Positions 1 to 63,363 of a DNA stretch of 64,000 bases are shown in pieces. The notes below the pieces were generated by a model. That model was not told where the DNA came from and searched no databases. It saw only the letters and a program-made list of their open reading frames with translations. A program made the translations under genes and the position numbers. Source of the stretch: an uncultured Bacteroidales bacterium (GTDB lineage Bacteria > Bacteroidota > Bacteroidia > Bacteroidales > F082); NCBI GenBank assembly GCA_946184615.1, contig CAMHFN010000001.1, positions 62,001-126,000 of the forward strand, given 5' to 3'. Positions within the stretch are counted from its first letter, which is position 1. Every line of letters begins with the position of its first letter.

Positions 1-498
1 AATTTGGGGAAAATAACAGAGCAAGAGCGTGATTCGGACACAGCATTGTGGAAGATCTTGTTAGCAAAGAGAATTGAAGCTGAAGGTGTTGAGCAAGCAT
101 ACAATGCCGTGATGGAAGGCTTGAAGGATAATGATCGTATTCAGATATATCAGTTTAAGAAATGGGCTGATTATGAAAACAACATGATCTTGCCACTTTT
201 AAAAGTATGTCAAAGGAAGCTGTTTGAATATCTTGGATTTGGCTTAACATCCCCATATCTAGCCATTATGAGAAGAAAAAAATTGGCTGCCACAAATGGT
301 ACAAGACAATACAATAGCATGACCACCTATTTCTTACAACAAACTCTATTGGCGGAAATAGACGATGACGTATATGACACATTCCAAAATAGTGAAATCA
401 ATGAATTGTTGATGCTTCAGAAAAAAGGAGATTTAAGTGCACTGGTTTCGCTTCTTAGAGAAAAGATCAAATTGCAAACTATCAAAACCATTGAATGA
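1..498 (+). CDS. C-terminal part of an unidentified protein upstream of drmA (5' truncated)
   Basis: The reading frame is open from the first base, so the window probably cuts into a longer gene; about 165 C-terminal residues are visible. A TTG at base 4 could be a start but has nothing special in favour of it. The visible part is mainly helical and charged, with no signal peptide, membrane segment or catalytic motif that I recognise. Its TGA stop (496-498) lies one base before the ATG of the DrmA-like helicase, so the two are almost certainly co-transcribed and probably functionally linked. It could be another subunit of the defence module, but nothing in the visible residues identifies it as DrmC (phospholipase D), DrmD (SNF2) or a methyltransferase. 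Confidence 0.6.
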   Translation, partial: NLGKITEQERDSDTALWKILLAKRIEAEGVEQAYNAVMEGLKDNDRIQIYQFKKWADYENNMILPLLKVCQRKLFEYLGFGLTSPYLAIMRRKKLAATNGTRQYNSMTTYFLQQTLLAEIDDDVYDTFQNSEINELLMLQKKGDLSALVSLLREKIKLQTIKTIE

Positions 499-499
499 T

Positions 500-3400
500 A
501 TGAAAAACTTAATACAAGAAAAAAGGGATTCATTGGAAGTGTTCATTCGTGAACAGATGGTTGGCCCCAATGGGTGCAGAGGGAGGTTTTCCCTTGAAAT
601 GGAAGGAAGCAAAACCTTTGATGGCGAAATAATAAACACCACACCTGGTTCGATTTATAGTACAGCGGTGCTCTTTCCTCGCAAAGCAGTTGGATTGTTT
701 GATGACATAGAAGCACCTGTTAATCCTGATGCCGAGGAGGATGAAGATATTTCAACAAATGGCGAGGAAGAAGACGAGCAACTGAGGTCGGATACCAATG
801 AGCTAAATGGTGCTCTTGGGAATGATGTTGATGACGAGGACGTGTATTCATTGAGTCGTAGATTTCCTAATACTATTGGCATATCTTGTTGTCTCATTCC
901 TGAAGCAGACATCACCAAAGATGTAAAAATTTCGGTTTCCGGAAGATATTACACAAAGATTGTCAGAGATGACAAGCAAAGAGTACAGGTAATAATAAAA
1001 GAAGATTTGAAGGAGTTTGAGCAATTCTTTGCAGAGCATCCTATATTACATCAATACTTTGTTTATAGTTCAGGCAAGCTTAAAATCAAGGCAATTCCAG
1101 CCAATGATGTCTCGAAGATAAGAGAAATGCTCCGCTCAATCAATATGGATTGTGCATCCCATGTTGCAATGATTGATGGAGCAGCTGATCCAATATTTCT
1201 TACAATACCTGAAAGCTACAGATTCTTGCTTTCGTATCGCGAAGTATTATTTAATAAATGGCTCAATCGCATTCATTTTGAAGAGGATGGCCAAGGCAAT
1301 GAAATAGCATCGTATCTTGATGAAGAAGAGAAAAAACAGATAGAGAACCAACTTAAGAAAGTCGAAATATATGAGACCATTATGTCATATTTTGACAGCC
1401 TTACTGAACTCTATGACTATAAAGGATTCGGTTTTTGGCAGTCTCATGATTTTAATACAACAATTGATTTAGCTGGACTCGAAAAGGATAACGGCTTTTC
1501 AGCGAAAAAGATATATAAGCCTTCAGACCATGAAAGCTTAAATCATTTCTTTTCTGTACAGGTAGCAGACAAAGTTAATCTGGCATTATCTGCCTGGCTT
1601 CAGATTACAAGAAATAGTAAAGACAAGACTGACAAGAACCTGTACTTAAAAGTTCTTGTTGTTAACGACTCTACCCCTTTCCGAGAAACCAACAAAAACC
1701 ATTTTTCTATCGTTAATGAGGAAGTAAACAAGCTTTGCTTTTTTGGCATAAGAATTGATCTGGAAAGCGATGCTTTGAACTCGTATCATGCAGACAACAC
1801 ATACAATGATGTCAATAAAGACGAGGATAAATTAAACTTTCTATATCGAAGTATTTATGACTACGGCGTTGGACATCTTTGCTCTGTCGATTGGGAGAAG
1901 AATTCAGAAGACAAAGTTGATCACATTTGGTCGGAGTTTCTTCCTTCTTTTGAGACACCAGACATCGAGCCGGTACCAAGGAAGAAACATGCAGATTATT
2001 TAGAAGAAGGCGACAAATGTATACCCCAACCCTATTTGACCGACGACAAGTGTCTTCAATTTAAATATCTGTCGACTTTTTCGGACGCTTCAGATGCAGA
2101 TATTATTTCCGGACTCAATGAATTTATCAATTTATATGAAGATTGGATATCAGAGAACAGGTCGCGGATAACAGAAACGAAGGACAAGATGTTTGCTTCG
2201 GAAAATCTTTCCAAATGCGAAAACGATATGCAACGCATGAGAGCGAATGTCGAGAACATTCTGACGGGCAATAAAGAGAACATGCATTGTTTCCGCTTGA
2301 TGAATTCCGCCATGTTTATGCAACTATGGCACAACAAGAAGGATAATCAGAGAATTGTAGTTACAGAAGACCCATATTTGGACGAGGATTTTTATAAAGA
2401 TGCAAACGACAATATTTTCCCTTCCACGCCACATGCGGCTTGGCGTCCTTTCCAATTAGCATTCATTTTACTAAACTTGGATGGTATCATACAACACCCT
2501 GATGATACTGGGTGGACAAAACGAAATGATTTAGTTGATTTGGTCTGGTTCCCTACTGGTGGTGGTAAGACGGAAGCTTATCTTGGAATTATTGCTCTTT
2601 GTATTATCTATCGCAGAAGGAAGTTTAAAGAGCAGGGTTCGGGTGTGGCTGCAATTATGAGATATACACTGCGCCTACTGACAACACAGCAATTCCAAAG
2701 GGCTTTACGTCTGATTTTGGCATTGGAGCAGATTCGAAGATGGGGGAAACATCAGCAAGAATTCAATCTCGGCAAAGAAGCAATTTCTATTGGATTGTAT
2801 GTTGGTGCTAATTCTTTACCCAATAATGAAAAAGACTTGGACGAGGAGTCAATTAAGTGGAATAATAGAGACGATGGGGAAAACAAGACCAAGATTCCAT
2901 TGGACAGATGTCCTTGGTGCGGTTCAAAGCTGAAGTATTCATCTAGTAAGAAAAAATACTTCTGTTCGAACGAAAACGATTCTTGTACCTTTTCCGATGA
3001 GTTACCAGTCTGCTTATGTGATGAGCACATTTACAAAAACCCGCCAACTTTGTTGTTTGGCACAGTTGATAAATTTGCATCGATAGCTCATCGTGTTTCT
3101 ACCAAATCTACTGAAGAAAACAAAGATTCGCGCCGCATTTTTGGGCAGGGCATTGACTGTCTTCCTCCAGATCTCATTATTCAAGATGAATTGCATCTGC
3201 TTCTAGGACCGTTAGGCTCGGCGGTTAGCTTGTTTGAATGTGCTATCGACCAGTTATGTTCGCGGGAGGATGGCACAAGACCAAAGATTATTTCTTCTAC
3301 AGCAACTACACGTAATACCGAATTGCAGATTCGGGCATTATATGATAGAGGTCTTAACATATTCCCGCACAATGGTTGCGACTATGATGATTCTTTCTTT

Positions 3401-4600
3401 GCCTTCTATAAACGAGAAAAGAAAAATGGTCATGTGGAATATGTGTCAAAACGTAAGTATATTGGCATCATGCCTACAGGAAGAACACAGATGACTACAC
3501 AAATGCGTTTGGCTGCAATCCTGTTGGTTCACAGGGCCATCTTTGAGGCTGAGCACTCAAAGGATTCGGGTTTTGAGTTTGTGGCAAATAACTATTACTC
3601 TATCATCTCATATTTCAACAGTCTGAAAGAAGTTGGCAAGACGGATGCCATGTTCTATACAGAATATTCAAAGTATGTGCGCCGATTGTTCAAACGAGTT
3701 ATGCACTATGGAAATCTTTTGGAGTGTTTCTATTCCATGAACGAATTGAAAGAGGCTGAACTCTCTGGACGATTGACAGGCGCAGAGGTAAACGAAAAGT
3801 TTGCTGAGGTTGGACAAGATTGGAGCATAGAGAAACGTCTGCCGCATAAAGAGAAAGGATCATGGGTTAAGGGGTCCACTCCTCCAGATTATATCTTGGC
3901 AACCAATATGATTTCAGTAGGCTTGGATGTGGGGCGTTTCAACACCATCATCATGAATTCTATGCCAAGAAATATTGCCGAGTATATTCAGGCAAGCTCT
4001 CGAGTAGCAAGAGAACAGAAAGGATTAGTGTTGACTTTGCATAATCCATATCGTTCAAGGGACGTATCGCATTATGAGAAATTCAGGGAGTTTCACGAAA
4101 AGCTATATTTTTATGTGGAACCTATTTCCATAACGCCGTTCTCGATGAAATCTATCGAGAAATACCTTGCGTTGTATCTTGCTGCCATAGTTCGCCACTC
4201 TTTCAACAAGCTTGCTGACCGAAAAAGTGCAGGCAGAATCAATGAAGGAGATTTGAGCAGACAGATAAAAGAGATGGTTGTTGAGTACTTCGACAAGAGG
4301 TATGAGAGGATGCAGAGACCAGGTATTAGCCTATTGGAGAGAGGACTACTCACGTCGGAATTAAAGGACAACATTATCAAGTTTGTTGATGAAGCTTTGC
4401 GGCAGTGGGAAGAAAAGGCAAATGAAACTGAAGGACTGGTGTATTACAACACACAGTACCAGAACACCTCGGCGTTATTTAGCGTTCCGGCAGACTATGA
4501 TGATTCAAAAGGAGAAAACCTGTGGACGGTCCCACAGTCCCTCCGTATTGTTGAACCCGAAGCAGTGCTTCATGTAAAAGTGGGAAACGATGGAAATTAA
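500..4600 (+). CDS. drmA: DrmA-like superfamily 2 helicase of a DISARM-type defence module
   Basis: A 1366-residue helicase-like protein starting at the ATG one base after the preceding stop. Visible helicase motifs are a Walker A (PTGGGKT, residues 685-691), a Walker B of the form DELH (896-899), an SSTAT motif III shortly after, and a motif VI QASSRVAR (1164-1171). A cysteine cluster (CPWC at 804-807 plus further cysteines to about 840) between the Walker motifs looks like a zinc-binding insert. The roughly 680-residue N-terminal region is acidic and has no motif I can name. The size, DELH box, zinc insert and partner with a DUF1998 protein match DrmA, the helicase of DISARM, which restricts invading phage DNA together with DrmB. 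The gene overlaps drmB by 11 bases. Other SF2/DUF1998 pairs, such as a split Druantia DruE, are the main alternative. Confidence 0.8.
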   Translation: MKNLIQEKRDSLEVFIREQMVGPNGCRGRFSLEMEGSKTFDGEIINTTPGSIYSTAVLFPRKAVGLFDDIEAPVNPDAEEDEDISTNGEEEDEQLRSDTNELNGALGNDVDDEDVYSLSRRFPNTIGISCCLIPEADITKDVKISVSGRYYTKIVRDDKQRVQVIIKEDLKEFEQFFAEHPILHQYFVYSSGKLKIKAIPANDVSKIREMLRSINMDCASHVAMIDGAADPIFLTIPESYRFLLSYREVLFNKWLNRIHFEEDGQGNEIASYLDEEEKKQIENQLKKVEIYETIMSYFDSLTELYDYKGFGFWQSHDFNTTIDLAGLEKDNGFSAKKIYKPSDHESLNHFFSVQVADKVNLALSAWLQITRNSKDKTDKNLYLKVLVVNDSTPFRETNKNHFSIVNEEVNKLCFFGIRIDLESDALNSYHADNTYNDVNKDEDKLNFLYRSIYDYGVGHLCSVDWEKNSEDKVDHIWSEFLPSFETPDIEPVPRKKHADYLEEGDKCIPQPYLTDDKCLQFKYLSTFSDASDADIISGLNEFINLYEDWISENRSRITETKDKMFASENLSKCENDMQRMRANVENILTGNKENMHCFRLMNSAMFMQLWHNKKDNQRIVVTEDPYLDEDFYKDANDNIFPSTPHAAWRPFQLAFILLNLDGIIQHPDDTGWTKRNDLVDLVWFPTGGGKTEAYLGIIALCIIYRRRKFKEQGSGVAAIMRYTLRLLTTQQFQRALRLILALEQIRRWGKHQQEFNLGKEAISIGLYVGANSLPNNEKDLDEESIKWNNRDDGENKTKIPLDRCPWCGSKLKYSSSKKKYFCSNENDSCTFSDELPVCLCDEHIYKNPPTLLFGTVDKFASIAHRVSTKSTEENKDSRRIFGQGIDCLPPDLIIQDELHLLLGPLGSAVSLFECAIDQLCSREDGTRPKIISSTATTRNTELQIRALYDRGLNIFPHNGCDYDDSFFAFYKREKKNGHVEYVSKRKYIGIMPTGRTQMTTQMRLAAILLVHRAIFEAEHSKDSGFEFVANNYYSIISYFNSLKEVGKTDAMFYTEYSKYVRRLFKRVMHYGNLLECFYSMNELKEAELSGRLTGAEVNEKFAEVGQDWSIEKRLPHKEKGSWVKGSTPPDYILATNMISVGLDVGRFNTIIMNSMPRNIAEYIQASSRVAREQKGLVLTLHNPYRSRDVSHYEKFREFHEKLYFYVEPISITPFSMKSIEKYLALYLAAIVRHSFNKLADRKSAGRINEGDLSRQIKEMVVEYFDKRYERMQRPGISLLERGLLTSELKDNIIKFVDEALRQWEEKANETEGLVYYNTQYQNTSALFSVPADYDDSKGENLWTVPQSLRIVEPEAVLHVKVGNDGN

Positions 4601-6767
4601 GACAGCAAAACAATTCAATCAAGGCATCGGAAAGTACAAGGTGCTTTCATCAAATGCAGGCGTGGGTTCCATAGTAGCAACAAAATGGGGCGGGTTTGTG
4701 ATGCCTCTAACGTCTTCAAAATGGGGCAGCGTGTTTGCTGTCAATGATTATCTGAGAAGAAATAGCACAGAGTTGCTTAATGCAGCAAAAATAATGGACG
4801 AAACAGGGGTTGAGATTGTTGACGACAACAGATTCGTGAGCTTTCTTAAAACAACTGAAGGGATGACATCTCTTCGCTGTCTGGTAGCCATCCCGCACAT
4901 ATCGCTTAATGCTTACAATGAATGCAATGTGGAAGAACATCCCGTGAATAAAAGGTATAGAGAGCTGCATCCAAGTAGCAAAGGAATATCTGAAGATATA
5001 TTTACTGTACCAGCTATCGTTTTTCCTCGTTGGTTCTTTTCGCGAACGAAAAAGGACTTTAAGTCGGTGGAAGAATGGCAGCGGATATGGCAAAAGAACA
5101 ATTGTAACGGGGGTGATTTGAGATACTTTGCGCCGCCAAGAGATCCATATAAAACAACTGGAAGAAAGCAGTTTGGTGATCGTTTTCCGGAAGGAAAGGA
5201 TAAGATTCATGAGTTGCTTGAACAGGTGTCGATGGTGCTGATTTGTCCTAATGGTCACATATCCGATATTCCATGGCAACAATACTTCTCTGCAAAACTT
5301 GAATTGGGCAAAAGAGTGTCAGAAAAGGGCTTTGACCTCTTCCACTATGAAGGGCAGCCATGTCCAGACAGTAAGACTGGTGAACATGAATTGCAATGGC
5401 TTGAAAACCGTAGCCATGCAGAAAGCTTTGGAACCCTTAAATGCAAGCACTGCGGCCAATCTGTTAGTTTGGAAGGTATTATGAATTTGCAACCTCTATG
5501 CCCAGGTGATAAGCCTTGGGAGGGAGTTGGCAAGCAAGACTATGCTGCTTGTATGCAAAAGACTGAGCATACACCAATGAAGTGGACTTTGGTGACGAGT
5601 AACAGCGTCTATTATGCTGAGAGTTTCAGCAGTCTTTATATCCCAGATGATTATAGAAAAGGAGTAAACGTCTTGGACGAAAAGCTGCAGAGGGTGCTAT
5701 CACTAATGATTGAAAAGTGGTTTGATAAGTATGCTAAGAAACATCCTGGCGCAACACGCAGGGAGTATTCGGAACGTTGCTTTATTGAGGATGCTAATAG
5801 TTTTGTCGAATACGTTATTTCAAAAGCTGACGATAGCGCTTACGAGCTAACATCTGAAGAAGCACAGAAGGTAATAAATGCTTTTCTCGCAGAAGGGTTA
5901 GAGGAGATAGACGGTGATGTGCGAGAACAGTACAGGTATGAAGAATTTGAAGTGTTTCAAAAAAACAGCAAATCTTTAGGAACGAACGACAAGTTAATCT
6001 TCAACGATATTGAATTGCCGAAGTCCCTACAACCTTATTTCCATAAAATACAACAGGTGACCACACTGGGTATGAGCAGCACTCAAATTAACTTCTCCAG
6101 AGTTTCTATTCCACAGCCGGAATTGAAAGATGATGGAACGATAGAGTATCCGAACAAGATGAAGATTTTCAGTGAAGCACCAGAAGACGTGTTGGCTATG
6201 CCTGCAATACAGAGTTTTGGAGAAGGATTGTTTTTCAGCTTCAATGAAAATACAATGAAAGCATGGGAAAACAAGTACGACGAGTTGTTCACAAAACGAT
6301 ATGCAGGGATGGATTCACATGATGATTCTTTCAACAGCATTTATCAAGAAATGAAACATGGTGGTGTGGCAAAGTTTTTAGCTCTTCATACATTCTCCCA
6401 TGTGCTGATGAAGGAGTTGGAGTTTTCTTGTGGCTACCCTACTGCTAGTTTGAGTGAACGTCTATATTTCTCAGATAGGATGTGTGGTGTTTTGATATAT
6501 ACGACAGACGGCGCGGAGGGAAGCATGGGGGGATTAGTTTGGCAGGGGCAACCCTCTTTGATAGAAGACATCCTTCGTAAAGCAATGCAAAGGGCTTTGA
6601 ACTGTGCATCAGACCCAATATGTTGGGAAAATGAAGATCAATTAAACTATGCAGCTTGTTTTTCCTGTGCCATGGTTTCTGAGACATCATGCGAGAAACG
6701 AAATGTTGGTTTGGACCGAAAGATTTTAGTTGATGCTAATTATGGTTATTTTAAAGATTTGATCTAA
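4590..6767 (+). CDS. drmB: DrmB-like DUF1998 protein, partner of the helicase
   Basis: A 725-residue protein with an ATG inside the last codons of drmA (11-base overlap), indicating translational coupling. The C-terminal part has the DUF1998 signature: an HTFSHVL helix, an aromatic and acidic stretch ending in TDGAEGSMGGL, and a terminal cysteine set (C672, C678, C690, C693, C701) that probably binds metal. A further CxxC pair (CKHCGQS) lies in the middle of the protein. In DISARM, DrmB pairs with DrmA and the two act on incoming DNA. No drmC (phospholipase D) follows: the next 668 bases are non-coding and the next gene is chromosomal and on the other strand. Any further subunits must lie upstream of the window or be absent. 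Confidence 0.8.
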   Translation: MEIKTAKQFNQGIGKYKVLSSNAGVGSIVATKWGGFVMPLTSSKWGSVFAVNDYLRRNSTELLNAAKIMDETGVEIVDDNRFVSFLKTTEGMTSLRCLVAIPHISLNAYNECNVEEHPVNKRYRELHPSSKGISEDIFTVPAIVFPRWFFSRTKKDFKSVEEWQRIWQKNNCNGGDLRYFAPPRDPYKTTGRKQFGDRFPEGKDKIHELLEQVSMVLICPNGHISDIPWQQYFSAKLELGKRVSEKGFDLFHYEGQPCPDSKTGEHELQWLENRSHAESFGTLKCKHCGQSVSLEGIMNLQPLCPGDKPWEGVGKQDYAACMQKTEHTPMKWTLVTSNSVYYAESFSSLYIPDDYRKGVNVLDEKLQRVLSLMIEKWFDKYAKKHPGATRREYSERCFIEDANSFVEYVISKADDSAYELTSEEAQKVINAFLAEGLEEIDGDVREQYRYEEFEVFQKNSKSLGTNDKLIFNDIELPKSLQPYFHKIQQVTTLGMSSTQINFSRVSIPQPELKDDGTIEYPNKMKIFSEAPEDVLAMPAIQSFGEGLFFSFNENTMKAWENKYDELFTKRYAGMDSHDDSFNSIYQEMKHGGVAKFLALHTFSHVLMKELEFSCGYPTASLSERLYFSDRMCGVLIYTTDGAEGSMGGLVWQGQPSLIEDILRKAMQRALNCASDPICWENEDQLNYAACFSCAMVSETSCEKRNVGLDRKILVDANYGYFKDLI

Positions 6768-7742: not shown

Positions 7743-8303
7743 TTATTTTGCTGAATCCCAACAAGTTTCATGCCGATGTTCTAAATAATCGAAATATCGG
7801 GCCAAAACGAAGAAATAATCCGAAAGACGATTCAAATACTTCAAATCAATGGCATCCACTTCCTCGTGAGATGCCAAACGCCATCCCTGTCGCTCCGCCC
7901 GACGGCACACGGTGCGGCATACATGACAATGCGAGGCCTTCAAGTTGCCACCTGGAATCACAAAAGCCCTCAACTCGGGCAACTCGGCGTTCATTTGGTC
8001 GATTTGTTGTTCCAAAAACGCCACATCGGCATCTTCCAGCAGGGGAATCATCTTGCTCGCCTCTGAACTTTTGTCCAGAGCGAAATGCGACTCTAAAGTG
8101 AACAACTTCTGCTGAATGACAGCCAACACCGCACAGATATCCTCTCCTACCCCTTCTTGATCACTCAACACGCCAATAAACGCACTCAGCTCATCCACCG
8201 TGCCGTATGCCTCCACACGGTCGTCATATTTCGGGACCCGCTTACCCCCAATCAAGGAAGTCGTACCCTTGTCCCCTGTCTTGGTATAAGTAATATTCTT
8301 CAT
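7743..8303 (-). CDS. PduO-type cob(I)yrinic acid a,c-diamide adenosyltransferase
   Basis: A 186-residue PduO-family ATP:corrinoid adenosyltransferase, which transfers adenosyl from ATP to cob(I)alamin to make coenzyme B12 in the cytoplasm. The N-terminus has the ATP-binding pattern TKTGDKGTTSLIGG (residues 6-19), followed by VEAYGTVDELSAFIG. The C-terminal half has the arginine-rich helix CRTVCRRAERQ and the ending LNRLSDYFFVLARY, all typical of the family; the length is normal. The gene lies 19 bases after the small methyltransferase-like gene and is the last member of the purL-nadE-mrp run. I saw no cobalamin riboswitch ahead of it, consistent with transcription from the upstream operon. 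Confidence 0.9.
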   Translation of the reverse strand: MKNITYTKTGDKGTTSLIGGKRVPKYDDRVEAYGTVDELSAFIGVLSDQEGVGEDICAVLAVIQQKLFTLESHFALDKSSEASKMIPLLEDADVAFLEQQIDQMNAELPELRAFVIPGGNLKASHCHVCRTVCRRAERQGWRLASHEEVDAIDLKYLNRLSDYFFVLARYFDYLEHRHETCWDSAK

Positions 8304-12280: not shown

Positions 12281-15200
12281 TTATTTGTTTTCTTCCACCC
12301 ACTTACGGGCATTTACGAAGGCCTCAATCCACGGGCTCACCTCGTCATCCTTACGATTGTCGGGGTAATGCGCCCACTGCCAAGGCAGGAAAGCACGCTC
12401 CAAATGAGGCATCATGGCCAGATGACGGCCATTGTTAGAACAGATACCTGCCACTGCCCAGTCGCTGCCATTCGGATTACCAGGATAACGCTCTTGACCG
12501 TAGGTCATCACGATCTTATACTTGTCGCGGTAATACGGGAAGTAGAATCTGCCTTCGCCGTGAGCTACCCACACCCCCAGTCGGCGTCCCGAAAGCGACT
12601 TCAGCATCACGCTTTCGTTTTGTGCAATCTCTACATTGAGGAAGGCTGACTCAAACTTATGGGAGTTGTTGTGTCGCATCACAGGATGTTCCTCATGGTC
12701 AGGATAAATCAAGCCCAGTTCCATCATCAGCTGACATCCATTACACACGCCAAGGCTCAAGGTATCCTCACGGGCATAAAAGTCATCCAAGGCTTTCTTG
12801 GCTTTTTCGTTGTATAGAAAAGCACCTGCCCATCCTTTGGCAGAACCTAACACATCGGAATTGGAGAAGCCACCTACAAACACAATCATGTTCACATCGG
12901 TGAGGTCTTCGCGCCCGCTGCTGAGGTCGGTCATGGTCACATCCTTCACATCGAAACCCGCCAAATACAGGGCGTAGGCCATCTCACGATCGCACTGGCA
13001 TCCTTTCTCTCGGATGATGGCTGCTTTGATGCCACTCTTCTTGCGACGGTTCATCAGGATACCCAAATCTTTGGCTTTGCCCGTAAAGCCATGACCAAAG
13101 CTATAATGCAGGTATTGTTCCTTGTAGTTCTGATAGCGTTCCAAAGCCTTTCGTTCGCCACTCTGCTTGCGGTCAAGTAAATAGGATGACTTGAACCACA
13201 CATCACGAAGCTCGTCGATGTCAAAGAGATGATCCAACCCCGCGTGATGGATGATTAACTTGCGTTTCTGGATGGGTTTACCCATCATCTTAAAGCGAAC
13301 TCCTGATTCACGCAACATCTTTTTCGCCTTACCGTCTCCAGCCACCTGGATGACCACAGAAGGCTTCTCACAGAAGAGCAATGCCGTGAAATCTTCCTTG
13401 GCAAAATCCTTCAGGTCGAGTTCCATACCGTATTCAGTATTGGCGAAGTTCATCTCCAACAAGGTGGTGATTAGACCACCTGCTGACACATCGTGACCTG
13501 CCATGACCAAGCCCTCTTCGATCAGCTTTTGAACAGCGTTAAAGGCTTTCTTGAAATAAGCGGGGCTCTTCACATCAGGGGCTTTCTGTCCAATGGCACC
13601 GATGGCTTGGGCAAAGCTGCTGCCGCCGAGTTCAAAGCCATCGCTGGAGAAGTCGATGTAAAGCAATTCGCTGTCCAAACACCCTTTCATTACGGGACGC
13701 ACCGTGCGTCGGATGTCGCTCACTTCACCGACGGCCGACACGATCACGGTTCCAGGAGCTACCACTTTTTGCCCATCAGGATATTTTTGCGTCATGGAAA
13801 GCGAGTCCTTACCTGTAGGCACATTGATACCTAAAGCAATGGCATAGTCGCTCAAGGCTTTCACCCCTTGATAGAGACGGGCGGTTTCACCCTCCTGTTT
13901 GGCAGGCCACATCCAGTTGGCACTCAACGAGACCCCTTGCAAGTTCCCCTCGATGGGAGCCCACATCAGGTTGGTTAGGGCTTCCGACACCGACAGGCGT
14001 GATCCTGCGGCAGGGTCAATAAGACCTGGGATGGGCGCGTGCCCCAGGGCTGTAGCGACACCACGACGACCCGTGTAGTCAAGTGCACTAATGCCCAAGT
14101 TGGCCAACGGAAGCTGCAACTCACCTACGGTTTGCTGTTGTGCCACACGTCCCGTCACCGAACGGTCCACCTTGTTGGTAAGCCAGTCCTTGCAAGCCAC
14201 AGCTTCCAGTTGCAATACTTTTTTCAGATACTTATGGAAATCACGTTTGGTATAGCTTATCTTTTTGAATTTCACCAGTTTGGTGGCATCGGCAAGAACT
14301 GTCCTAGGTGCACTTCCGAAGAAGTCGGATAAGGCCAAATCGATTGGAGCCTCACCCTCCTTACGGACAAAACGAAGCCGTTCGTCACCCGTCACTTCGC
14401 CCACCTCGTAGTACGGAGCACGCTCACGTTCAGCGGTCTTACGCACCAGGGCAAGGTCTTTTTTCTTCACCAAAAGACCCATACGCTCCTGTGACTCATT
14501 GCCGATGATTTCCTTGTCCGAAAGCGTCGGGTCTCCTACAGGAAGACGATCAACATATACCACACCACCCGCATCCTCAATCAACTCAGAAAGGCAATTC
14601 AAGTGGCCGCCGGCACCGTGGTCGTGAATGCTGCGAATAGGATTGGTGTCTTTTTCAGCCATGGCGCGAATCACATTGCTGACACGCTTCTGCATTTCAG
14701 GGTTGGCACGTTGCACTGCATTAAGCTCAATGGCATTGCTGTATTGGCCTGTGTCAACACTAGACACGGCACCACCTCCCATGCCGATACGGTAGTTATC
14801 ACCACCCAGCACCACAATCACGTCACCCGGTTCGGGTTCCAATTTCTTCGCATTCTCTTTCTTGGCAAAGCCAATACCGCCTGCCAGCATGATCACTTTG
14901 TCATAGCCCAATGTCTCCCCTTCTTGATGTTCGAAAGTCAGCAAACTGCCATTGATGAGGGGCTGGCCAAACTTGTTGCCGAAGTCAGAAGCACCATTGG
15001 AGGCCTTGATCAAAATTTCCTCCGGGGTTTGATAGAGCCATTGACGAGGTTCCGTATCTTGTTCCCAGCTGCGGTTTTCTTCCGTGCGGGGGTAAGAGGT
15101 CATATACACAGCCGTACCTGCCAATGGGATACTGGCCTGACCACCAGCCAGACGGTCACGAATCTCACCACCTGTACCTGTTGCTGCACCGTTGAAAGGC

Positions 15201-15967
15201 TCCACGGTGGTCGGGAAGTTATGCGTCTCGGCTTTCAGCGAGATAATGGTGTCAACACCCTTGATTTGAAAATAACTTGCCTCAAACTGGCCTTGTGGGG
15301 CAAACTGCTCCACCCGAGGTCCGAGCACGAAGGCCACATTGTCCTTATAGGCCGAAACCAACCGGTTGGGGTTGGTGGTGGAGGTCTTTTTGATCAAGGC
15401 GAACAGGGTGCTACCCATTTTCTTTCCATCAATAATGAAGGTACCGTTAAAAATCTTATGGCGGCAATGCTCCGAGTTGACTTGGGCAAATCCATACACT
15501 TCACTGTCGGTAAGCTTGCGTCCAATCTTCTTTGAAATGCCCTCCAAATAGGCAATCTCCTCCTCACTCAATGCCAATCCTTCCTGTGCATTATATGCCG
15601 CTATATTATCGATATGCTTCAAGGGTTCCGGCTTTCGATTCACGGTAAACACCTTTTGATCGAGATTATGGTACATGGCCTGGAGCATAGGGTCGTAAGG
15701 GGCTTCTTTCGACTCCACAGCATGGAATTCCTCAATACGAAGAATGCCATCGATGCCCATGTTTTGGGTGATCTCGACGGCATTAGTGCTCCAAGGCGTA
15801 ATCATTTCCCGACGCGGACCAACGAAAAAGCCTTTGACCGACTTGGTCTTAACCAAGGATGCTTTGCCAAAAAGCCACGACAAACGGGAAAGACTCTCTT
15901 CAGAGAGTTCAGATACGGCATCAACAGCTATAACTCGTTGATCACCAGACTGGAAAAAGCATATCAT
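12281..15967 (-). CDS. purL: Phosphoribosylformylglycinamidine synthase (large single-chain type)
   Basis: A 1228-residue single-chain FGAR amidotransferase, the fourth step of purine synthesis, using glutamine and ATP to convert FGAR to FGAM. It joins the PurS-like N-terminus, the tandem synthetase halves (for example VNSEHCRHKIFNG near residue 167 and HNFPTTVEPFNGAATGTGG, with a second ATP-binding half containing PTGKDSLSMT) and a C-terminal glutaminase with the nucleophile C1075 in GVCNGC and H1188/E1190 in PHLERAF. The length is near that of the proteobacterial and eukaryotic form. The -7 element at 16000-16007 makes this the first gene of the operon that continues into nadE. Confidence 0.95.
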   Translation of the reverse strand: MICFFQSGDQRVIAVDAVSELSEESLSRLSWLFGKASLVKTKSVKGFFVGPRREMITPWSTNAVEITQNMGIDGILRIEEFHAVESKEAPYDPMLQAMYHNLDQKVFTVNRKPEPLKHIDNIAAYNAQEGLALSEEEIAYLEGISKKIGRKLTDSEVYGFAQVNSEHCRHKIFNGTFIIDGKKMGSTLFALIKKTSTTNPNRLVSAYKDNVAFVLGPRVEQFAPQGQFEASYFQIKGVDTIISLKAETHNFPTTVEPFNGAATGTGGEIRDRLAGGQASIPLAGTAVYMTSYPRTEENRSWEQDTEPRQWLYQTPEEILIKASNGASDFGNKFGQPLINGSLLTFEHQEGETLGYDKVIMLAGGIGFAKKENAKKLEPEPGDVIVVLGGDNYRIGMGGGAVSSVDTGQYSNAIELNAVQRANPEMQKRVSNVIRAMAEKDTNPIRSIHDHGAGGHLNCLSELIEDAGGVVYVDRLPVGDPTLSDKEIIGNESQERMGLLVKKKDLALVRKTAERERAPYYEVGEVTGDERLRFVRKEGEAPIDLALSDFFGSAPRTVLADATKLVKFKKISYTKRDFHKYLKKVLQLEAVACKDWLTNKVDRSVTGRVAQQQTVGELQLPLANLGISALDYTGRRGVATALGHAPIPGLIDPAAGSRLSVSEALTNLMWAPIEGNLQGVSLSANWMWPAKQEGETARLYQGVKALSDYAIALGINVPTGKDSLSMTQKYPDGQKVVAPGTVIVSAVGEVSDIRRTVRPVMKGCLDSELLYIDFSSDGFELGGSSFAQAIGAIGQKAPDVKSPAYFKKAFNAVQKLIEEGLVMAGHDVSAGGLITTLLEMNFANTEYGMELDLKDFAKEDFTALLFCEKPSVVIQVAGDGKAKKMLRESGVRFKMMGKPIQKRKLIIHHAGLDHLFDIDELRDVWFKSSYLLDRKQSGERKALERYQNYKEQYLHYSFGHGFTGKAKDLGILMNRRKKSGIKAAIIREKGCQCDREMAYALYLAGFDVKDVTMTDLSSGREDLTDVNMIVFVGGFSNSDVLGSAKGWAGAFLYNEKAKKALDDFYAREDTLSLGVCNGCQLMMELGLIYPDHEEHPVMRHNNSHKFESAFLNVEIAQNESVMLKSLSGRRLGVWVAHGEGRFYFPYYRDKYKIVMTYGQERYPGNPNGSDWAVAGICSNNGRHLAMMPHLERAFLPWQWAHYPDNRKDDEVSPWIEAFVNARKWVEENK

Positions 15968-15999
15968 ATTGCACAGATTTTTAGCAATTAATATGCTCG

Positions 16000-16007
16000 C
16001 AAAAGTA
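16000..16007 (-). promoter_or_regulatory. -7 element of the purL operon
   Basis: TACTTTTG on the minus strand, 32 bases before the purL ATG. It matches TAnnTTTG. Confidence 0.6.
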
Positions 16008-16018
16008 AGTATTTATTT

Positions 16019-17029
16019 TTAATTTACCAACATTTTCTTGTTCGCCAAAACACGATTTCCCGAAAGGATTTGCAGGAAATAACACCCCTGTTGAAGTTTG
16101 TTTTTTAAAGAAGCTATCTCTTCCTCTTCATTTATAATGTTGGTCTGCAACAGTTTCCGTCCACAGAGGTCATACACTATGATTTGGTCAGATTGCAGTT
16201 CTGCTGATGTGTTATATTCGTCTACACTCCATTCTGGATCCCAAATCATCCGTGCATATTCCGGATGGTCCACAAAAGGATTCCGGTTACGTTGGTAGTC
16301 GCTGTAAATGACGTTGTTACGGTCGATCTCCTTCTGGCTGACGGGGTCTTGGTCATTCCAACGGAGTAGCATGTTAATAGCCCAGGGCAAGATGACCGAC
16401 TTATTGGTCATGTCACTGCTACCCCAACTGGAATCCTCCAAATAGTAACGCACACTCATATACATAAGGGCACGAGCGAAATCGCCTTTGTATTCGTCAA
16501 TCGGCTCAAATACCACTTTTTCATAACCCGGAGTCTTACAAGAGCCCAACTTGGAACCATTTAACGAAGTCCATGAAGCGGAACGTACCTCGCCATACGG
16601 GTAATTGCTCCTCCTCCAGTTCACATGGCCATCGGTAGCAAAGATATGATGCAGATCGGTACGCGGCGTAGTTTGATCATTGAACCAGCTCTGAGGCCAC
16701 GAATGCTCACGGTTATAGCAATCCCCCTCGCCATTGTAGTTTCCACACTGATCCATACCCAACTCGAAAGTGTAAGGCGGCGTGCCACCGGGTCGGTCAG
16801 AATACATGTCCCACACCACGCCATCGCCCTTGTTGTCGGTACTCCAGAAGGCATTCCAAATCTCACCATACGTGATGGTAAAATGGCCCTTGATAATGTT
16901 GTGCAAAGCCCGTTTCAACGGCTCACCTGTCAATCCTTCGGCCGAAGTATAATAGTATGAGGGTGCCTGAGCAAAAGCCATGGTCACCACGGCAAGAAAA
17001 CCAAAAAGCAAAAACGTCTTTTTCATCAT
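16019..17029 (-). CDS. Secreted endonuclease I with a T9SS C-terminal domain
   Basis: A 336-residue exported nuclease. A signal peptide occupies residues 1-20 (cleavage after AFAQ). The endonuclease I domain has the beta-beta-alpha-metal signature CYNREHSWPQSWF (near residue 105) and DLHHIFATDGHVNWRRSNYP, with the catalytic histidine and metal-binding Asn/His. The last about 70 residues (IIVYDLCGRKLLQ, then NKLQQGCYFLQIL, ending NKKMLVN) have the pattern of a type A T9SS sorting domain, so the protein is probably translocated to the cell surface or medium. It would degrade extracellular DNA, for nutrition or biofilm turnover. It starts seven bases after the MntP-like gene. Two adjacent ATGs (17029, 17026) could serve as start. 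Confidence 0.9.
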   Translation of the reverse strand: MMKKTFLLFGFLAVVTMAFAQAPSYYYTSAEGLTGEPLKRALHNIIKGHFTITYGEIWNAFWSTDNKGDGVVWDMYSDRPGGTPPYTFELGMDQCGNYNGEGDCYNREHSWPQSWFNDQTTPRTDLHHIFATDGHVNWRRSNYPYGEVRSASWTSLNGSKLGSCKTPGYEKVVFEPIDEYKGDFARALMYMSVRYYLEDSSWGSSDMTNKSVILPWAINMLLRWNDQDPVSQKEIDRNNVIYSDYQRNRNPFVDHPEYARMIWDPEWSVDEYNTSAELQSDQIIVYDLCGRKLLQTNIINEEEEIASLKNKLQQGCYFLQILSGNRVLANKKMLVN

Positions 17030-17035
17030 TCGATA

Positions 17036-17602
17036 TTAGATTAGGTCTGTGAAAAGATAGAGTATCGCTATCACGATCACGAAAACTGCGCCCGAAAACT
17101 CAATGAAACTGGATGCGCGCATTAATTCCGGTGAATACTCCTTTTTGACAGCATTAAGTGCCCAAAGGAATCCCGATAGGGCTACAGCCAAGAAATACCA
17201 ATAGCCAAAGGGCAAGAAACCATCACCACAAACACCCATCATAAACGTATCAACGGAAGCAAAAATGCCCAACAGCAAAAAGCCCCAGATAGAGGTAAAA
17301 GAAAACAAGTATTTTGCTTTCAACACTTTCATGGCGTGGACAATCATCTTAAAGGCCACAATCAACATGATGGCAAAAACAAAATAAGGCAGATAGTCGC
17401 CGTACATGGGAGCAATCCATCTCCCGAACAGATAACCTAGGAAAGCCATAAAGGCTTCTGCGGCACCAAATACCAAAGCCGCAAGCAACTGTCTTGAGGG
17501 CTTGCTCTGGCTTTTCGGTTCCAAACCTAAAGCTACTGTTACAACGGGTGTGGTCAATGACAAAACAAAGACGATTCCGATAATAATTGCTGCTGGGGTC
17601 AT
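17036..17602 (-). CDS. MntP-like membrane protein
   Basis: A 188-residue protein with about six predicted membrane helices in two similar halves, resembling the DUF204/MntP manganese exporters. The second half keeps the acidic motif as SVDTFMMGV, but the first half reads LTTPVVTVAL where the family usually has an SMDAFAV-like motif with the matching aspartate. With one of the two paired aspartates missing, manganese export is uncertain. The ATG at 17602 starts only four bases after the -7 element, so the message may be leaderless. A longer start at 17659 is rejected because that sequence forms the tnaA terminator. Confidence 0.6.
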   Translation of the reverse strand: MTPAAIIIGIVFVLSLTTPVVTVALGLEPKSQSKPSRQLLAALVFGAAEAFMAFLGYLFGRWIAPMYGDYLPYFVFAIMLIVAFKMIVHAMKVLKAKYLFSFTSIWGFLLLGIFASVDTFMMGVCGDGFLPFGYWYFLAVALSGFLWALNAVKKEYSPELMRASSFIEFSGAVFVIVIAILYLFTDLI

Positions 17603-17674: not shown

Positions 17675-19051
17675 TTATCCCAATCTCTTGAACTGGCAGG
17701 TGAAGTGACGCATCAGTTCAGCCTCCCAAGTGATTTCCAAACCACGCTTGATTTCGTTACGACGGTCGTACACGTTCTTCAATGCAGCGGCAATCACGTC
17801 CATGTGATTGTTAGTATACACACGACGAGGGATGCAGAGACGGACGAAATCATTGCCTCCGAAGCGGTTCTGACGGGTAACCGGATCACGGTCAGCCAGC
17901 ACATAACCGATTTCGCAGGCACGGATGCCGGCTTCAAGGTAAAGCTCACAGGTCAGCGTCTGAGCGGGGAACTCTTCCTTCGGGATGTTGGTCAACACCT
18001 TGTCGGCGTCGACGAAGATAGCGTGACCACCAGCAGGACGCTGATAAGGAATACCATACTCATCGAGTTTTTTGGCCAGGTAGTGAACCTGTTTGATACG
18101 GGTTTCAACCATCTCAAACTCAATATTTTCCTTCAGACCAACAGCCAAAGCATCCATGTCACGGCCGTTCATGCCTCCATAGGTAAGGAAGCCCTCGAAG
18201 GGGATGCAGAACAACTTGGCTCCTTCGTACCAGTCCTTCTTGTTGGTGGCAATGAAGCCACCCATGTTGACGAGACCATCCTTCTTGGCTGACATCGTCA
18301 TCGAGTCAGCATAGCTGAACATCTCAAGAGCAATCTCACGAAGCGTCTTGTCGGCATAACCTTCCTCACGAGTCTTGATGAAGTAGGCGTTCTCAATGAA
18401 ACGGGCGCTATCGATGTTGACTGGCACACCGTATTTGTGGCAGAGCTCACAAGTCTCGCGGATGTTCTTCATGCTCACAGGCTGACCACCGACAGTGTTG
18501 TTGGTGACGGTGAGAACCATGAAGGGTACGTTACCCTTGTTCTCTTGCAGCACTTTCTCAAGCTTCTCGAGGCTGACGTTGCCTTTGAAAGGCACTTCTA
18601 ACTGAGTATCGTAAGCTTCAGGCACGGTGACATCAATGGCGAAGGCCTTACGGCTCTCGATGTGACCTTTGGTGGTGTCGAAGTGGGCGTTGCCCGGGAC
18701 AACCATACCAGGTTTCACGAGATAACTAAACAGCACATTCTCAGCAGCACGGCCCTGGTGGGTAGGGATAACATACTCGAATCCAGTAAGTTCAGTGATA
18801 GTATCCTTCATGTGATAGAAAGAACGAGCACCTCCGTAGCTCTCATCACCCATCATCATAGCCGCCCATTGACGGTCGCTCTGAGCACCCGTACCTGAAT
18901 CGGTCAGCAGGTCGATATAAACGTAGTCGCTCTTCAACATGAAGACATTCTGGTGGGCTTCGTTGAGCCATTTTTCGCGTTGTTCGCGGGTGGATTTCTT
19001 AATGGGTTCAACCATCTTGATTTTCCACGCTTCTGCAAATGGTAATTCCAT
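17675..19051 (-). CDS. tnaA: Tryptophanase (indole-forming)
   Basis: A 458-residue pyridoxal-phosphate lyase that splits tryptophan into indole, pyruvate and ammonia in the cytoplasm. It starts MELPFAEAWKIKMVEPI as in other Bacteroidales tryptophanases. It has the cofactor-binding THQGRAAEN loop, and the PLP lysine lies in MSAKKDGLVNMGG (about residues 255-267). NIDSARFIENAYFIK and YGGMNGRDM also fit TnaA. The related tyrosine phenol-lyase is the main alternative, but it usually has TR and SGKKD where this protein has SARF and SAKKD. The gene stands alone with a long leader (about 165 bases) and its own terminator. Confidence 0.92.
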   Translation of the reverse strand: MELPFAEAWKIKMVEPIKKSTREQREKWLNEAHQNVFMLKSDYVYIDLLTDSGTGAQSDRQWAAMMMGDESYGGARSFYHMKDTITELTGFEYVIPTHQGRAAENVLFSYLVKPGMVVPGNAHFDTTKGHIESRKAFAIDVTVPEAYDTQLEVPFKGNVSLEKLEKVLQENKGNVPFMVLTVTNNTVGGQPVSMKNIRETCELCHKYGVPVNIDSARFIENAYFIKTREEGYADKTLREIALEMFSYADSMTMSAKKDGLVNMGGFIATNKKDWYEGAKLFCIPFEGFLTYGGMNGRDMDALAVGLKENIEFEMVETRIKQVHYLAKKLDEYGIPYQRPAGGHAIFVDADKVLTNIPKEEFPAQTLTCELYLEAGIRACEIGYVLADRDPVTRQNRFGGNDFVRLCIPRRVYTNNHMDVIAAALKNVYDRRNEIKRGLEITWEAELMRHFTCQFKRLG

Positions 19052-61584: not shown

Positions 61585-63363
61585 GTGGCAAAACAGAAGT
61601 TCAGTGAACGGATGGAGCGTTTCCATGAATGGCGGACAGCACATCTGACCAATCAGCAATTTATGCTTTTGCTCAGCATTCCCACGGGCTTTCTTGGAGG
61701 TTTGGCGGCCATCCTTATTAAAAAGTCGGCCCACGGCATCCGCGATTTGGTTCTAGGCATCCAGTTCGAGCATTCCGATATATTGTATTTTGTATTTCCT
61801 GCTATCGGCATCCTGCTCACCATCTGTTTTTGTAAATTCATTCTAAAAAAAGAAATTGGGCATGGCATTCCCGGCATCTTGTACGCCATCAAGAAGAAAA
61901 AAGGCGAAGTCAGCCAACACAGCATGTGGTCGACCATCATCGCCAGCGCTCTGACGGTAGGTTTCGGAGGCAGTGTCGGTTTGGAGGGCCCATCTGTGTC
62001 GACAGGTGCTAGCATCGGTGCCAACTTGGCACGATGGCTAAAGTTGGAATACAAGCAAGTGGTCATGCTTATCGGCATGGGAGGGGCAGCGGCATTGGCT
62101 TCCATCTTCCAAGCCCCAATGACAGGCATCTTCTTCGCTTTGGAAGTGCTGATGATCGACCTTTCCTTGGGGTCCCTTATCCCCATCATTTGCTCCTCTT
62201 TTACTGCCATTTTGACTTCTTATTTCTTCCTCGGACAAGCCGTAGAATACAATGCCATCATCACCGAGGGTTTCAACCCCAGCAATGCGTTATATTACAT
62301 AGGATTAGGTATTTTTGTTGGATTGGTTTCCGCTTACTTTTTGAAGGTTACTTTTAGTATGGAGAAACGCTTCAAAGGCTTGAGCTCGCCATGGAAGCGC
62401 TTTTTAATCGGAGCCACCCTGCTCGGCATTCTTATTTTCTTGTTCCCAGCGCTATACGGGGAAGGATACGATGCTATTAATTCCGCACTACGTGGCGATT
62501 ACAGTCCCATTTATGAAAATCCATTCTTTGCAGGGTTACAAGATCGCGGTTGGACCATATTGGTTCTTTTGGCAGCCATCATCTTATTAAAAGCCTTTGC
62601 TACCGCATTGACTTTCGGAGCAGGAGGTGTGGGAGGAACTTTCGCTCCCGCCCTTTTCATTGGTGCATTCTCGGGTCTGTTGTTCGCCCTATCCATGAAA
62701 TACATGGGATTACGCGAACTAGATCCCGCCAAATTCGCTTTAGTTGGCATGAGCGGACTTATTGCAGGCATGCTCCATGCTCCACTAACAGGCATCTTCC
62801 TCATTGCTGAAATCACCAACGGATACTCGCTCATCGTTCCTCTGATGATCGTTTCAGCCCTCTCCTATTTTGTCAACAGGATCTTCTTTAAACACTCGGT
62901 CTATACCAACGCCGTAGCCGAACACGGAGTGGAGGTGACGCACAACAAGGATGTCAGCATCCTCAACATGATGACAATCAACGGCCTTATCGAAACCAAC
63001 TTCAGCAAAATCAAGCGTGGGTCCACTTTGGGCGACCTGATTCCTGTCATTTCCTCCTCTCGACGCAATATTTTTCCCGTGGTTGACAAAGATGGCACCT
63101 TCTGCGGTCACGTGTTGTTCGACGACATCCGCAGCGTGATGTTCGACCAAACCTTATATAGCCATCCCATCGAAGAATTCACCGTTATTCCAGAGTATAT
63201 TATTCAACCCGAAGATTCCATGGAGACAGTCGTAAAAAAGTTTCAGGTTTCAGGCAAATACAACATCCCTGTCATCGAAAACGGGAAATACCTCGGCTAC
63301 GTCTCTAGGGCCAATGTGTTTTCAACCTACCGGAAGACATTGAGCGATATTTCTGAAGATTAA
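61585..63363 (+). CDS. CLC-type chloride channel/transporter with CBS domains
   Basis: A 592-residue CLC protein with about 11 membrane segments. The selectivity-filter motifs are GSVGLEGPSVSTG (the gating Glu within GxEGP, about residue 137), and the GAGGVGGTFAPALFIGA part of the GxFxP motif near residue 350; a pair of CBS domains ends the protein (about 460-592). It moves chloride across the inner membrane. The start is GTG 61585; an ATG at 61612 (Met10) is an alternative, and an ATG at 61578 opens only a 9-codon out-of-frame ORF. Confidence 0.92.
   Translation: MAKQKFSERMERFHEWRTAHLTNQQFMLLLSIPTGFLGGLAAILIKKSAHGIRDLVLGIQFEHSDILYFVFPAIGILLTICFCKFILKKEIGHGIPGILYAIKKKKGEVSQHSMWSTIIASALTVGFGGSVGLEGPSVSTGASIGANLARWLKLEYKQVVMLIGMGGAAALASIFQAPMTGIFFALEVLMIDLSLGSLIPIICSSFTAILTSYFFLGQAVEYNAIITEGFNPSNALYYIGLGIFVGLVSAYFLKVTFSMEKRFKGLSSPWKRFLIGATLLGILIFLFPALYGEGYDAINSALRGDYSPIYENPFFAGLQDRGWTILVLLAAIILLKAFATALTFGAGGVGGTFAPALFIGAFSGLLFALSMKYMGLRELDPAKFALVGMSGLIAGMLHAPLTGIFLIAEITNGYSLIVPLMIVSALSYFVNRIFFKHSVYTNAVAEHGVEVTHNKDVSILNMMTINGLIETNFSKIKRGSTLGDLIPVISSSRRNIFPVVDKDGTFCGHVLFDDIRSVMFDQTLYSHPIEEFTVIPEYIIQPEDSMETVVKKFQVSGKYNIPVIENGKYLGYVSRANVFSTYRKTLSDISED

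Follow-up and report, generated by a model that had tools for sequence, protein, structure and literature searches.

The window studied here, a 64,000-nucleotide stretch of contig CAMHFN010000001.1 (assembly GCA_946184615.1) from an uncultured Bacteroidales bacterium, begins inside a five-gene operon that is probably a restriction-modification-like defence system. According to this reading, a radical S-adenosylmethionine (SAM) protein, here called rSAM, would mark the DNA of the cell itself, and DrmA-DrmB together with a NERD nuclease-helicase would attack unmarked DNA. It builds on two comparisons. In gene order, two operons that otherwise match that of the window begin with a C5 DNA methyltransferase where the window operon has rSAM, and a comparison of rSAM loci showed that members of this enzyme family have moved among four or more different restriction cassettes.

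The operon and the methyltransferase slot

Base 1 of the window is base 62001 of the contig (173 kb); the assembly comprises 2.34 Mb and is rated 79% complete. All five genes run in the same direction, the first two lying wholly upstream of the window. For the upstream genes, positions are given in the numbering of the longer stretch L002, whose position 19001 is window base 1:

L002:13947-15359 (G000:C1:56947-58359; -5053 to -3641 from base 1), + strand: radical SAM protein rSAM (P0002), 470 amino acids
L002:15369-17111 (-3631 to -1889), + strand: NERD nuclease and superfamily 1 (SF1) helicase (P0003), 580 amino acids
L002:17108-19498 (-1892 to 498), + strand: protein X (P0001), 796 amino acids, its C-terminal 165 residues at window 1..498
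500..4600, + strand: DrmA-like YprA-family superfamily 2 (SF2) helicase, 1366 amino acids (PADLOC, NCBIfam, helicase motifs)
4590..6767, + strand: DrmB (DUF1998/MZB), 725 amino acids (NCBIfam, Pfam)

The rSAM and NERD-helicase genes are separated by 9 bases and those of X and DrmA by a single base; the NERD-helicase gene overlaps the gene of X by 4 bases, and the DrmA gene overlaps that of DrmB by 11 bases. Among the five products, no significant methyltransferase or phospholipase D (PLD) nuclease family was detected with Pfam, PADLOC and NCBIfam. This agrees with a sequence-only reading of the window, which had recognised neither drmC nor a methyltransferase beside DrmA-DrmB and had considered that a standard DISARM (defence island system associated with restriction-modification) gene set directly upstream would make the pair ordinary. 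Extension of the sequence and family searches did not reveal such a set there. As the alternative to missing genes farther upstream, the same reading had proposed a reduced or new variant, with an unrecognised gene one base before DrmA as its additional subunit. This gene is a real frame, of which the window holds only the last 165 of 796 residues, and the idea of a variant was correct as far as it went. It was incomplete, however, since the NERD-helicase and rSAM head the operon, and rSAM, which of all parts is the best conserved and recurs most widely, was missing from that account.

In 395 Bacteroidota genomes, DrmB was found in 21 and rSAM in one, and 19 of the 20 other DrmB regions were examined. 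Two of these 19 (L314 and L318; L324 and L325 as longer stretches) revealed the order C5 methyltransferase, NERD, X-like protein, DrmA and DrmB. Their methyltransferases have 568 and 598 amino acids (PF00145, 2e-35 and 4e-37), and their third proteins (829 and 834 amino acids) are homologous to X according to hhalign (99.1% and 95.7%). Both operons correspond to that of the window in the arrangement of their genes and in having homologues of its NERD, X, DrmA and DrmB proteins; the first gene differs. Seven further products from four other DrmB regions contained no methyltransferase according to Pfam. When three C5 methyltransferases were used as tblastn queries, a C5-like stretch was found in eight of the 19 DrmB regions without rSAM (E <= 1e-3; L314 and L318 included) and in two of the 80 rSAM loci described below (L215 and L223; E <= 1e-5), none of them among the 26 loci of the window's own type A, in a comparison in which limits and flank lengths differ between the sets and N6 types are hardly covered.

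rSAM and its restriction cassettes

The 7-kb record MT837356.1 (L005) contains the first three operon genes in the same order and then ends. Identities to the window operon are 61-62% for rSAM, 41-44% for NERD and 27-29% for X. This record is filed as 'Bacteriophage sp.', yet it represents part of a defence operon of type A. As rSAM was the best conserved gene in this comparison, it was chosen as query for a scan of 84,980 species genomes, in which 170 stretches matched and 109 were confirmed; the best 80 loci were analyzed. Cassettes were typed by tblastn with the window genes and reference genes of L172, L199 and L215; family libraries were applied to L172, L199, L215 and portions of L222 and L231, and the other loci were typed by similarity to the references. 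On this basis, 72 of the 80 loci adjoin one of four restriction cassettes, namely NERD/X/DrmAB (type A, 26 loci), DndFGH (type B, 15), a ParB-like/SNF2 set (type C, 11) or Pbe (type D, 20).

In type A, DrmA was seen in 19 of the 26 loci and DrmB in addition in 17; three loci with DrmA (L182, L212, L213) are without NERD. The remaining seven show NERD and/or X only, and in six of them the contig breaks off within 4 kb. In L167, the 9.5 kb downstream hold only a NERD piece. Type B loci have DndF, DndG and DndH behind rSAM (L172: PADLOC 4.7e-93, 6.8e-43 and 1111 bits). The type C set consists of a ParB-like protein, a 139-amino-acid protein, an SNF2 helicase and a second ParB-like protein, with the helicase downstream of rSAM in ten loci and upstream in L231. 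In type D, PbeA and PbeC of the PbeABCD/CxC-ATPase module stand beside rSAM, downstream in 19 loci and on the opposite strand in L222. Three pairs are likely near-duplicates (L208/L209, L183/L184, L188/L190). According to record names, among which those of metagenome bins are unchecked, the carriers are mainly Bacteroidales, but Clostridium, Acidaminobacter, Flavonifractor, Collinsella, Enorma and Lentisphaerae also occur. Cultured carriers, again named from the records, include Dysgonomonas sp. 520 (type A), Prevotella sp. tc2-28 and Paraprevotella clara YIT 11840 (both type B) and Bacteroides ndongoniae Marseille-P3108T (type D).

The loci of no type are L218, L234, L236, L238, L241, L243, L244 and L245, five of them with less than 5 kb downstream. 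L218:9590-11868 is a remnant in which only the first half of rSAM is left (85% identical), followed by a C-terminal piece of DrmB, the type A middle being gone. A few kb from the cassette-less rSAM of L234, an 862-amino-acid protein (14752-17337, - strand) matches DolB/PDC-M37B (7.1e-33, 3.3e-41).

None of the 15 type B genomes had the phosphorothioation enzyme DndC (TIGR03183) above cut-off, and of the rSAM-Dnd/Pbe genomes altogether one in 35 had it (0/23 and 1/12; genome completeness not given). Outside this set, two genomes have full-length DndH and no rSAM hit, and DndC was above cut-off in both. The DndH search of the 395 genomes gave matches in 102, mostly short and located in the C-terminal ATPase; the whole model was covered in two.

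Exchange of cassettes is evident among close relatives. The rSAM protein of the window is 87% identical to those of L168, L171, L176 and L178 (type A), 83% to that of L172 (type B) and 84% to that of L230 (type C). In a tree of 64 rows it falls into a 9-row clade containing types A, B and C (99% in the Shimodaira-Hasegawa-like approximate likelihood ratio test, SH-aLRT), and the sister pairs L191 (A)/L193 (B) and L204 (D)/L219 (C) differ in type (SH-aLRT 99-100%). At least 21 changes of cassette type were counted on this tree. Parting of rSAM and cassette was also observed within type A: L168 is 87% identical in rSAM, 51% in NERD and 28% in X, and the opposite was found in L198 (65%, 83% and 59%). 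The addition of rSAM to many cassettes might also be explained by a general accessory that makes a free, viperin-like antiviral molecule or signal and thereby strengthens any restriction cassette; according to a review, prokaryotic viperins are radical SAM defence enzymes. However, rSAM is found where two other operons have a C5 DNA methyltransferase, stands mostly without DndC beside DndFGH and Pbe and has viral kin that often adjoin DNA methyltransferases, and no PADLOC family matched it. This explanation is therefore rather unlikely.

The next open reading frame (ORF) on the same strand lies within 100 bp of the rSAM stop in 67 of 72 loci (A 26/26, with L005 included and L187 left out; B 12/15; C 10/11; D 19/20). 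This ORF is a gene of about 210-240 amino acids preceding the cassette in some D loci and in L196 and L197, and a non-cassette gene in L222. In L199 (9557-11671) and its Pbe-type kin L200-L203, L205, L206, L207 and L211, the rSAM frame continues into a C-terminal extension of about 230 residues without clear family. The extension is separate in L204 and L214, and type A loci L196 and L197 have a gene of similar size after rSAM.

The tight spacing bears on a further possibility, namely that DrmAB acts without a mark or uses methyltransferases in trans, rSAM being a passenger of mobile defence islands. Farther upstream of rSAM in the window's genome, a Sel1-repeat protein and a tyrosine integrase are encoded on the opposite strand, followed by a resolvase, and a mobile region is therefore likely. 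Moreover, three C5 methyltransferases exist elsewhere in this genome, DISARM still restricts phages without methylation motifs (PMC9142583), and DndFGH has been proposed as a standalone system (PMC10853773). Conservation of the spacing across four cassettes and, by record names, several phyla does not fit a passenger well, and we give this possibility little chance.

The gene products and their relatives

No Pfam family matched rSAM, PF04055 (Radical_SAM) included, and no PADLOC family was found at E up to 1, a search in which no viperin model was run by name. PF04055 scores of its kin were 0.096 (L005), 5e-05 (plasmid L010) and 9e-04 (phage L009), the latter two below cut-off. By contrast, rSAM matches phage family PHROG 9298 (3e-33). 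The CxxxCxxC motif of a [4Fe-4S] cluster (C176, C180, C183) is present in P0002 and in 62 of 62 homologues. The model of the L168 protein, calculated from an alignment of 62 sequences (predicted local distance difference test, pLDDT, 93.6), shows a Rossmann-like domain followed by a radical SAM barrel. VIA-align Z scores were 13.8 for the methyl-coenzyme M reductase glutamine methylase MgmA, 13.8 for AprD4, 12.6 for MiaB, 12.4 for RimO, 12.0 for OxsB and 11.8 for TsrM. Several of these enzymes transfer methyl or methylthio groups. The predicted fold points to C-methylation (cobalamin-type) or to a sulphur-containing change (MiaB/RimO-type), but the modelled fold alone does not give the substrate, and rSAM differs from the MiaB/RimO methylthiotransferases and the cobalamin enzymes MgmA, OxsB and TsrM by an identity of 9-16% and by the lack of DxHxxG. 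Since MiaB, RimO and MgmA are among the best structural matches, it is conceivable that rSAM modifies a protein or RNA, as a maturase or MiaB-like tRNA enzyme, which the cassettes need or spare. The scanned representative cassette proteins have, however, no obvious common protein to mature, and the genomic neighbours are DNA-modification genes, so that such a role seems improbable. Downstream of the operon, a frame at 7743-8303 (- strand) reads like a cob(I)alamin adenosyltransferase. It is probably a housekeeping gene, but would be interesting if rSAM uses cobalamin.

The best viral kin of rSAM are 36-39% identical. Ninety-nine viral loci with kin over 150 bits were found, of which one (L138) contains Pbe genes and 20 show weak SNF2 matches only. 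Scanning of 31 non-redundant loci (112 of 116 nearest same-strand neighbours) yielded 15 N6_N4_Mtase, 11 C5 methylase, 6 ParB_N, 5 S-AdoMet synthetase and 4 PAPS reductase matches, as well as 7 terminase small subunits. Viral scans with single proteins and with A1 and A2 gave no useful result. Members of PHROG 9298 belong to the same family by sequence; its examples are shorter, mostly without restriction cassettes and often beside phage DNA methyltransferases. That phages themselves carry rSAM kin, and that rSAM occupies the slot of a writing enzyme, argues against the idea that it erases or repairs modifications of invading phage DNA to let the cassette attack, which we regard as highly improbable.

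On the rhizobial plasmids L331, L332, L334 and L335, a type C cassette (partial in L335) adjoins genes annotated as DGQHR, radical SAM and ATP-binding. In L331, the DGQHR protein is DndB (PF14072, 1.8e-11) and the radical SAM protein a distant relative of rSAM (hhalign 98.5%); the ATP-binding proteins of L332 and L335 are GHKL ATPases. Beside the ParB-like/SNF2 cassette, this DGQHR/DndB - radical SAM - GHKL set resembles a separate modification module. The Roseomonas plasmid L333 has a type C cassette as well, with an ATP-binding, a 'hypothetical' and a DGQHR protein on the other strand.

In the NERD-helicase, residues D68, E81 and K83 of the NERD domain and the helicase Walker A motif are kept in 23 of 23 aligned sequences; the three residues presumably fit the PD-(D/E)xK pattern. 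Protein X revealed no significant family in Pfam, PADLOC and NCBIfam and has no HxKxxxxD motif. A match to the TBP-interacting domain was below cut-off (Pfam, E 0.084), and hhalign of the X alignment against one DrmE_C-bearing protein gave a probability of 0.1%. Structure prediction, which the sequence-only reading had suggested for this partner, returned a helicase-like model with low scores. Sequence searches of the PDB and a search for X in plasmids gave no useful result, and among the 395 Bacteroidota genomes X was detected only in that of the window.

DrmA and DrmB had already been named as such from the window alone, and PADLOC and NCBIfam bear this out, as do the overlap and the motifs. 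DrmA starts at an ATG at 500, one base past the preceding stop (496-498), in an ORF whose longest form opens at GTG 437 (1387 amino acids). It matches PADLOC DrmA (8.5e-178) and contains PTGGGKT, DELH, CPWC and QASSRVAR; with NCBIfam DISARM_DrmAS it reaches 738.7 bits, under the equivalog cut-off of 950. DrmB exceeds the cut-off of NCBIfam DrmB_fam (285.6 versus 240 bits) and matches Pfam MZB (8.9e-07). Its weak match to a methyltransferase-linked ferredoxin-like domain (Pfam, E 0.25) was disregarded. A DruE-like fusion in relatives, which would have placed the pair in Druantia, was looked for: DrmA and DrmB are separate frames in all 17 rSAM loci showing both. In genome G167, L310:6067-11064 (+ strand) contains a 1665-amino-acid frame with DrmA and DrmB matches, a fused distant relative without rSAM (DrmA 32%). 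Another DrmAB gene run (L312, genome G057) includes a Piwi-domain protein (15437-17506, - strand; PF02171, 1.7e-15) two genes upstream of DrmA-DrmB, and this Argonaute-like gene stands between genes for proteins of 559 and 816 amino acids.

Interpretation and relation to known systems

Its place in the methyltransferase slot leads us to assign to rSAM the writing of a mark, to DrmAB the parts of reader and motor, and to NERD that of nuclease. Slot sharing and cassette exchange suggest that rSAM would chemically mark the DNA of its own cell, protecting it from the system. The operon-like spacing behind rSAM, the scarcity of C5-like stretches in rSAM loci and of DndC in rSAM-Dnd/Pbe genomes, and the DNA-modification genes near its plasmid and viral kin favour the same reading. 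As in the solved DISARM core, DrmA-DrmB may load on DNA, be restrained by the mark and translocate on unmarked phage or plasmid DNA; PMC9142583 describes a DrmAB ATPase stimulated by unmethylated and reduced by methylated DNA. The NERD PD-(D/E)xK nuclease-helicase, replacing DrmC, would cut or degrade the unmarked DNA, and X, a degenerate helicase-like protein, might serve as an assembly or sensing subunit.

Several observations weigh against this reading. The DNA mark is a prediction from gene content and gene order, and one of three extra conserved cysteines of rSAM, C313, is substituted in 13 of 62 homologues. The methyltransferase-type operon was found only twice, and searches via X-like relatives returned merely the starting genomes among 189 and 80 related genomes. 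Besides, there are DrmAB regions that have neither rSAM nor a neighbouring methyltransferase: for most of the remaining 17, where not every gene was scanned, no methyltransferase was seen directly before DrmAB, so its lack does not set rSAM operons apart. On another contig of the window's genome, three matches to C5 DNA methyltransferases lie less than 9 kb apart (G000:C6:50819-59503), so that a mark could come in trans. As to the cassettes, eight of the 80 rSAM loci fit no type, and some operons look decayed (DrmA of L171; internal stops in the L174 NERD and in the L173 and L175 DrmA matches). The DndC comparison includes just two DndFGH control genomes, the rSAM-Pbe genome of L239 carries DndC and three further genomes have weak sub-cut-off matches. 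Cassette types are distributed non-randomly over the rSAM tree: with two loci reassigned, 23 changes were counted, compared to a mean of 31 after shuffling and never under 26 in 500 shuffles. The type is partly inherited and often swapped. Finally, the remaining viral loci with rSAM kin contain no cassette genes.

The operon resembles DISARM in its DrmA-like YprA helicase and DrmB, encoded by adjacent separate genes, and in the integrase and resolvase nearby. It differs by rSAM, the NERD-helicase and X, by a DrmA below the equivalog cut-off and by the absence of a recognised methyltransferase (DrmMI/DrmMII) or DrmC. Because the latter two were searched for and not found, the operon was not classed as DISARM, even though PMC9142583 calls DrmC non-essential. 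With ARMADA, TALON, BRIGADE and Druantia, as described in PMC12458937, it has the YprA-family helicase in common, with TALON also a NERD nuclease. However, in these systems helicase and DUF1998 typically form a single chain, and here they are encoded by two genes. Moreover, the PglX-like methyltransferase and BrxHII-like helicase of ARMADA were not recognised in the operon, and the TPR-CSD and TBP genes of TALON were not matched by Pfam. The Pbe versions covered in the examined sections of PMC10853773 occur either together with DndCDEA or cytosine methylases or on their own; no radical SAM partner is mentioned there, and radical SAM refers to DndC. Literature searches, which covered sources in part, retrieved no description of an rSAM module common to several restriction cassettes.

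On balance, we lean towards a portable rSAM that writes a novel DNA mark used by DrmAB, DndFGH, Pbe and SNF2/ParB modules across phyla, with phages carrying kin in order to wear it. The mark might be an altered backbone or a base that is C-methylated or contains sulphur. As it stands, the operon is a previously undescribed variant of modification-guarded restriction; it would be categorically new if the mark were demonstrated. DISARM-like and Pbe modules would then have a single candidate writer in common, testable in cultured gut bacteria. If this is true, radical-chemistry restriction-modification would form a class beside methylation, phosphorothioation and deazaguanine modification, with a new chemistry for distinguishing self from non-self DNA and a portable modification cartridge.

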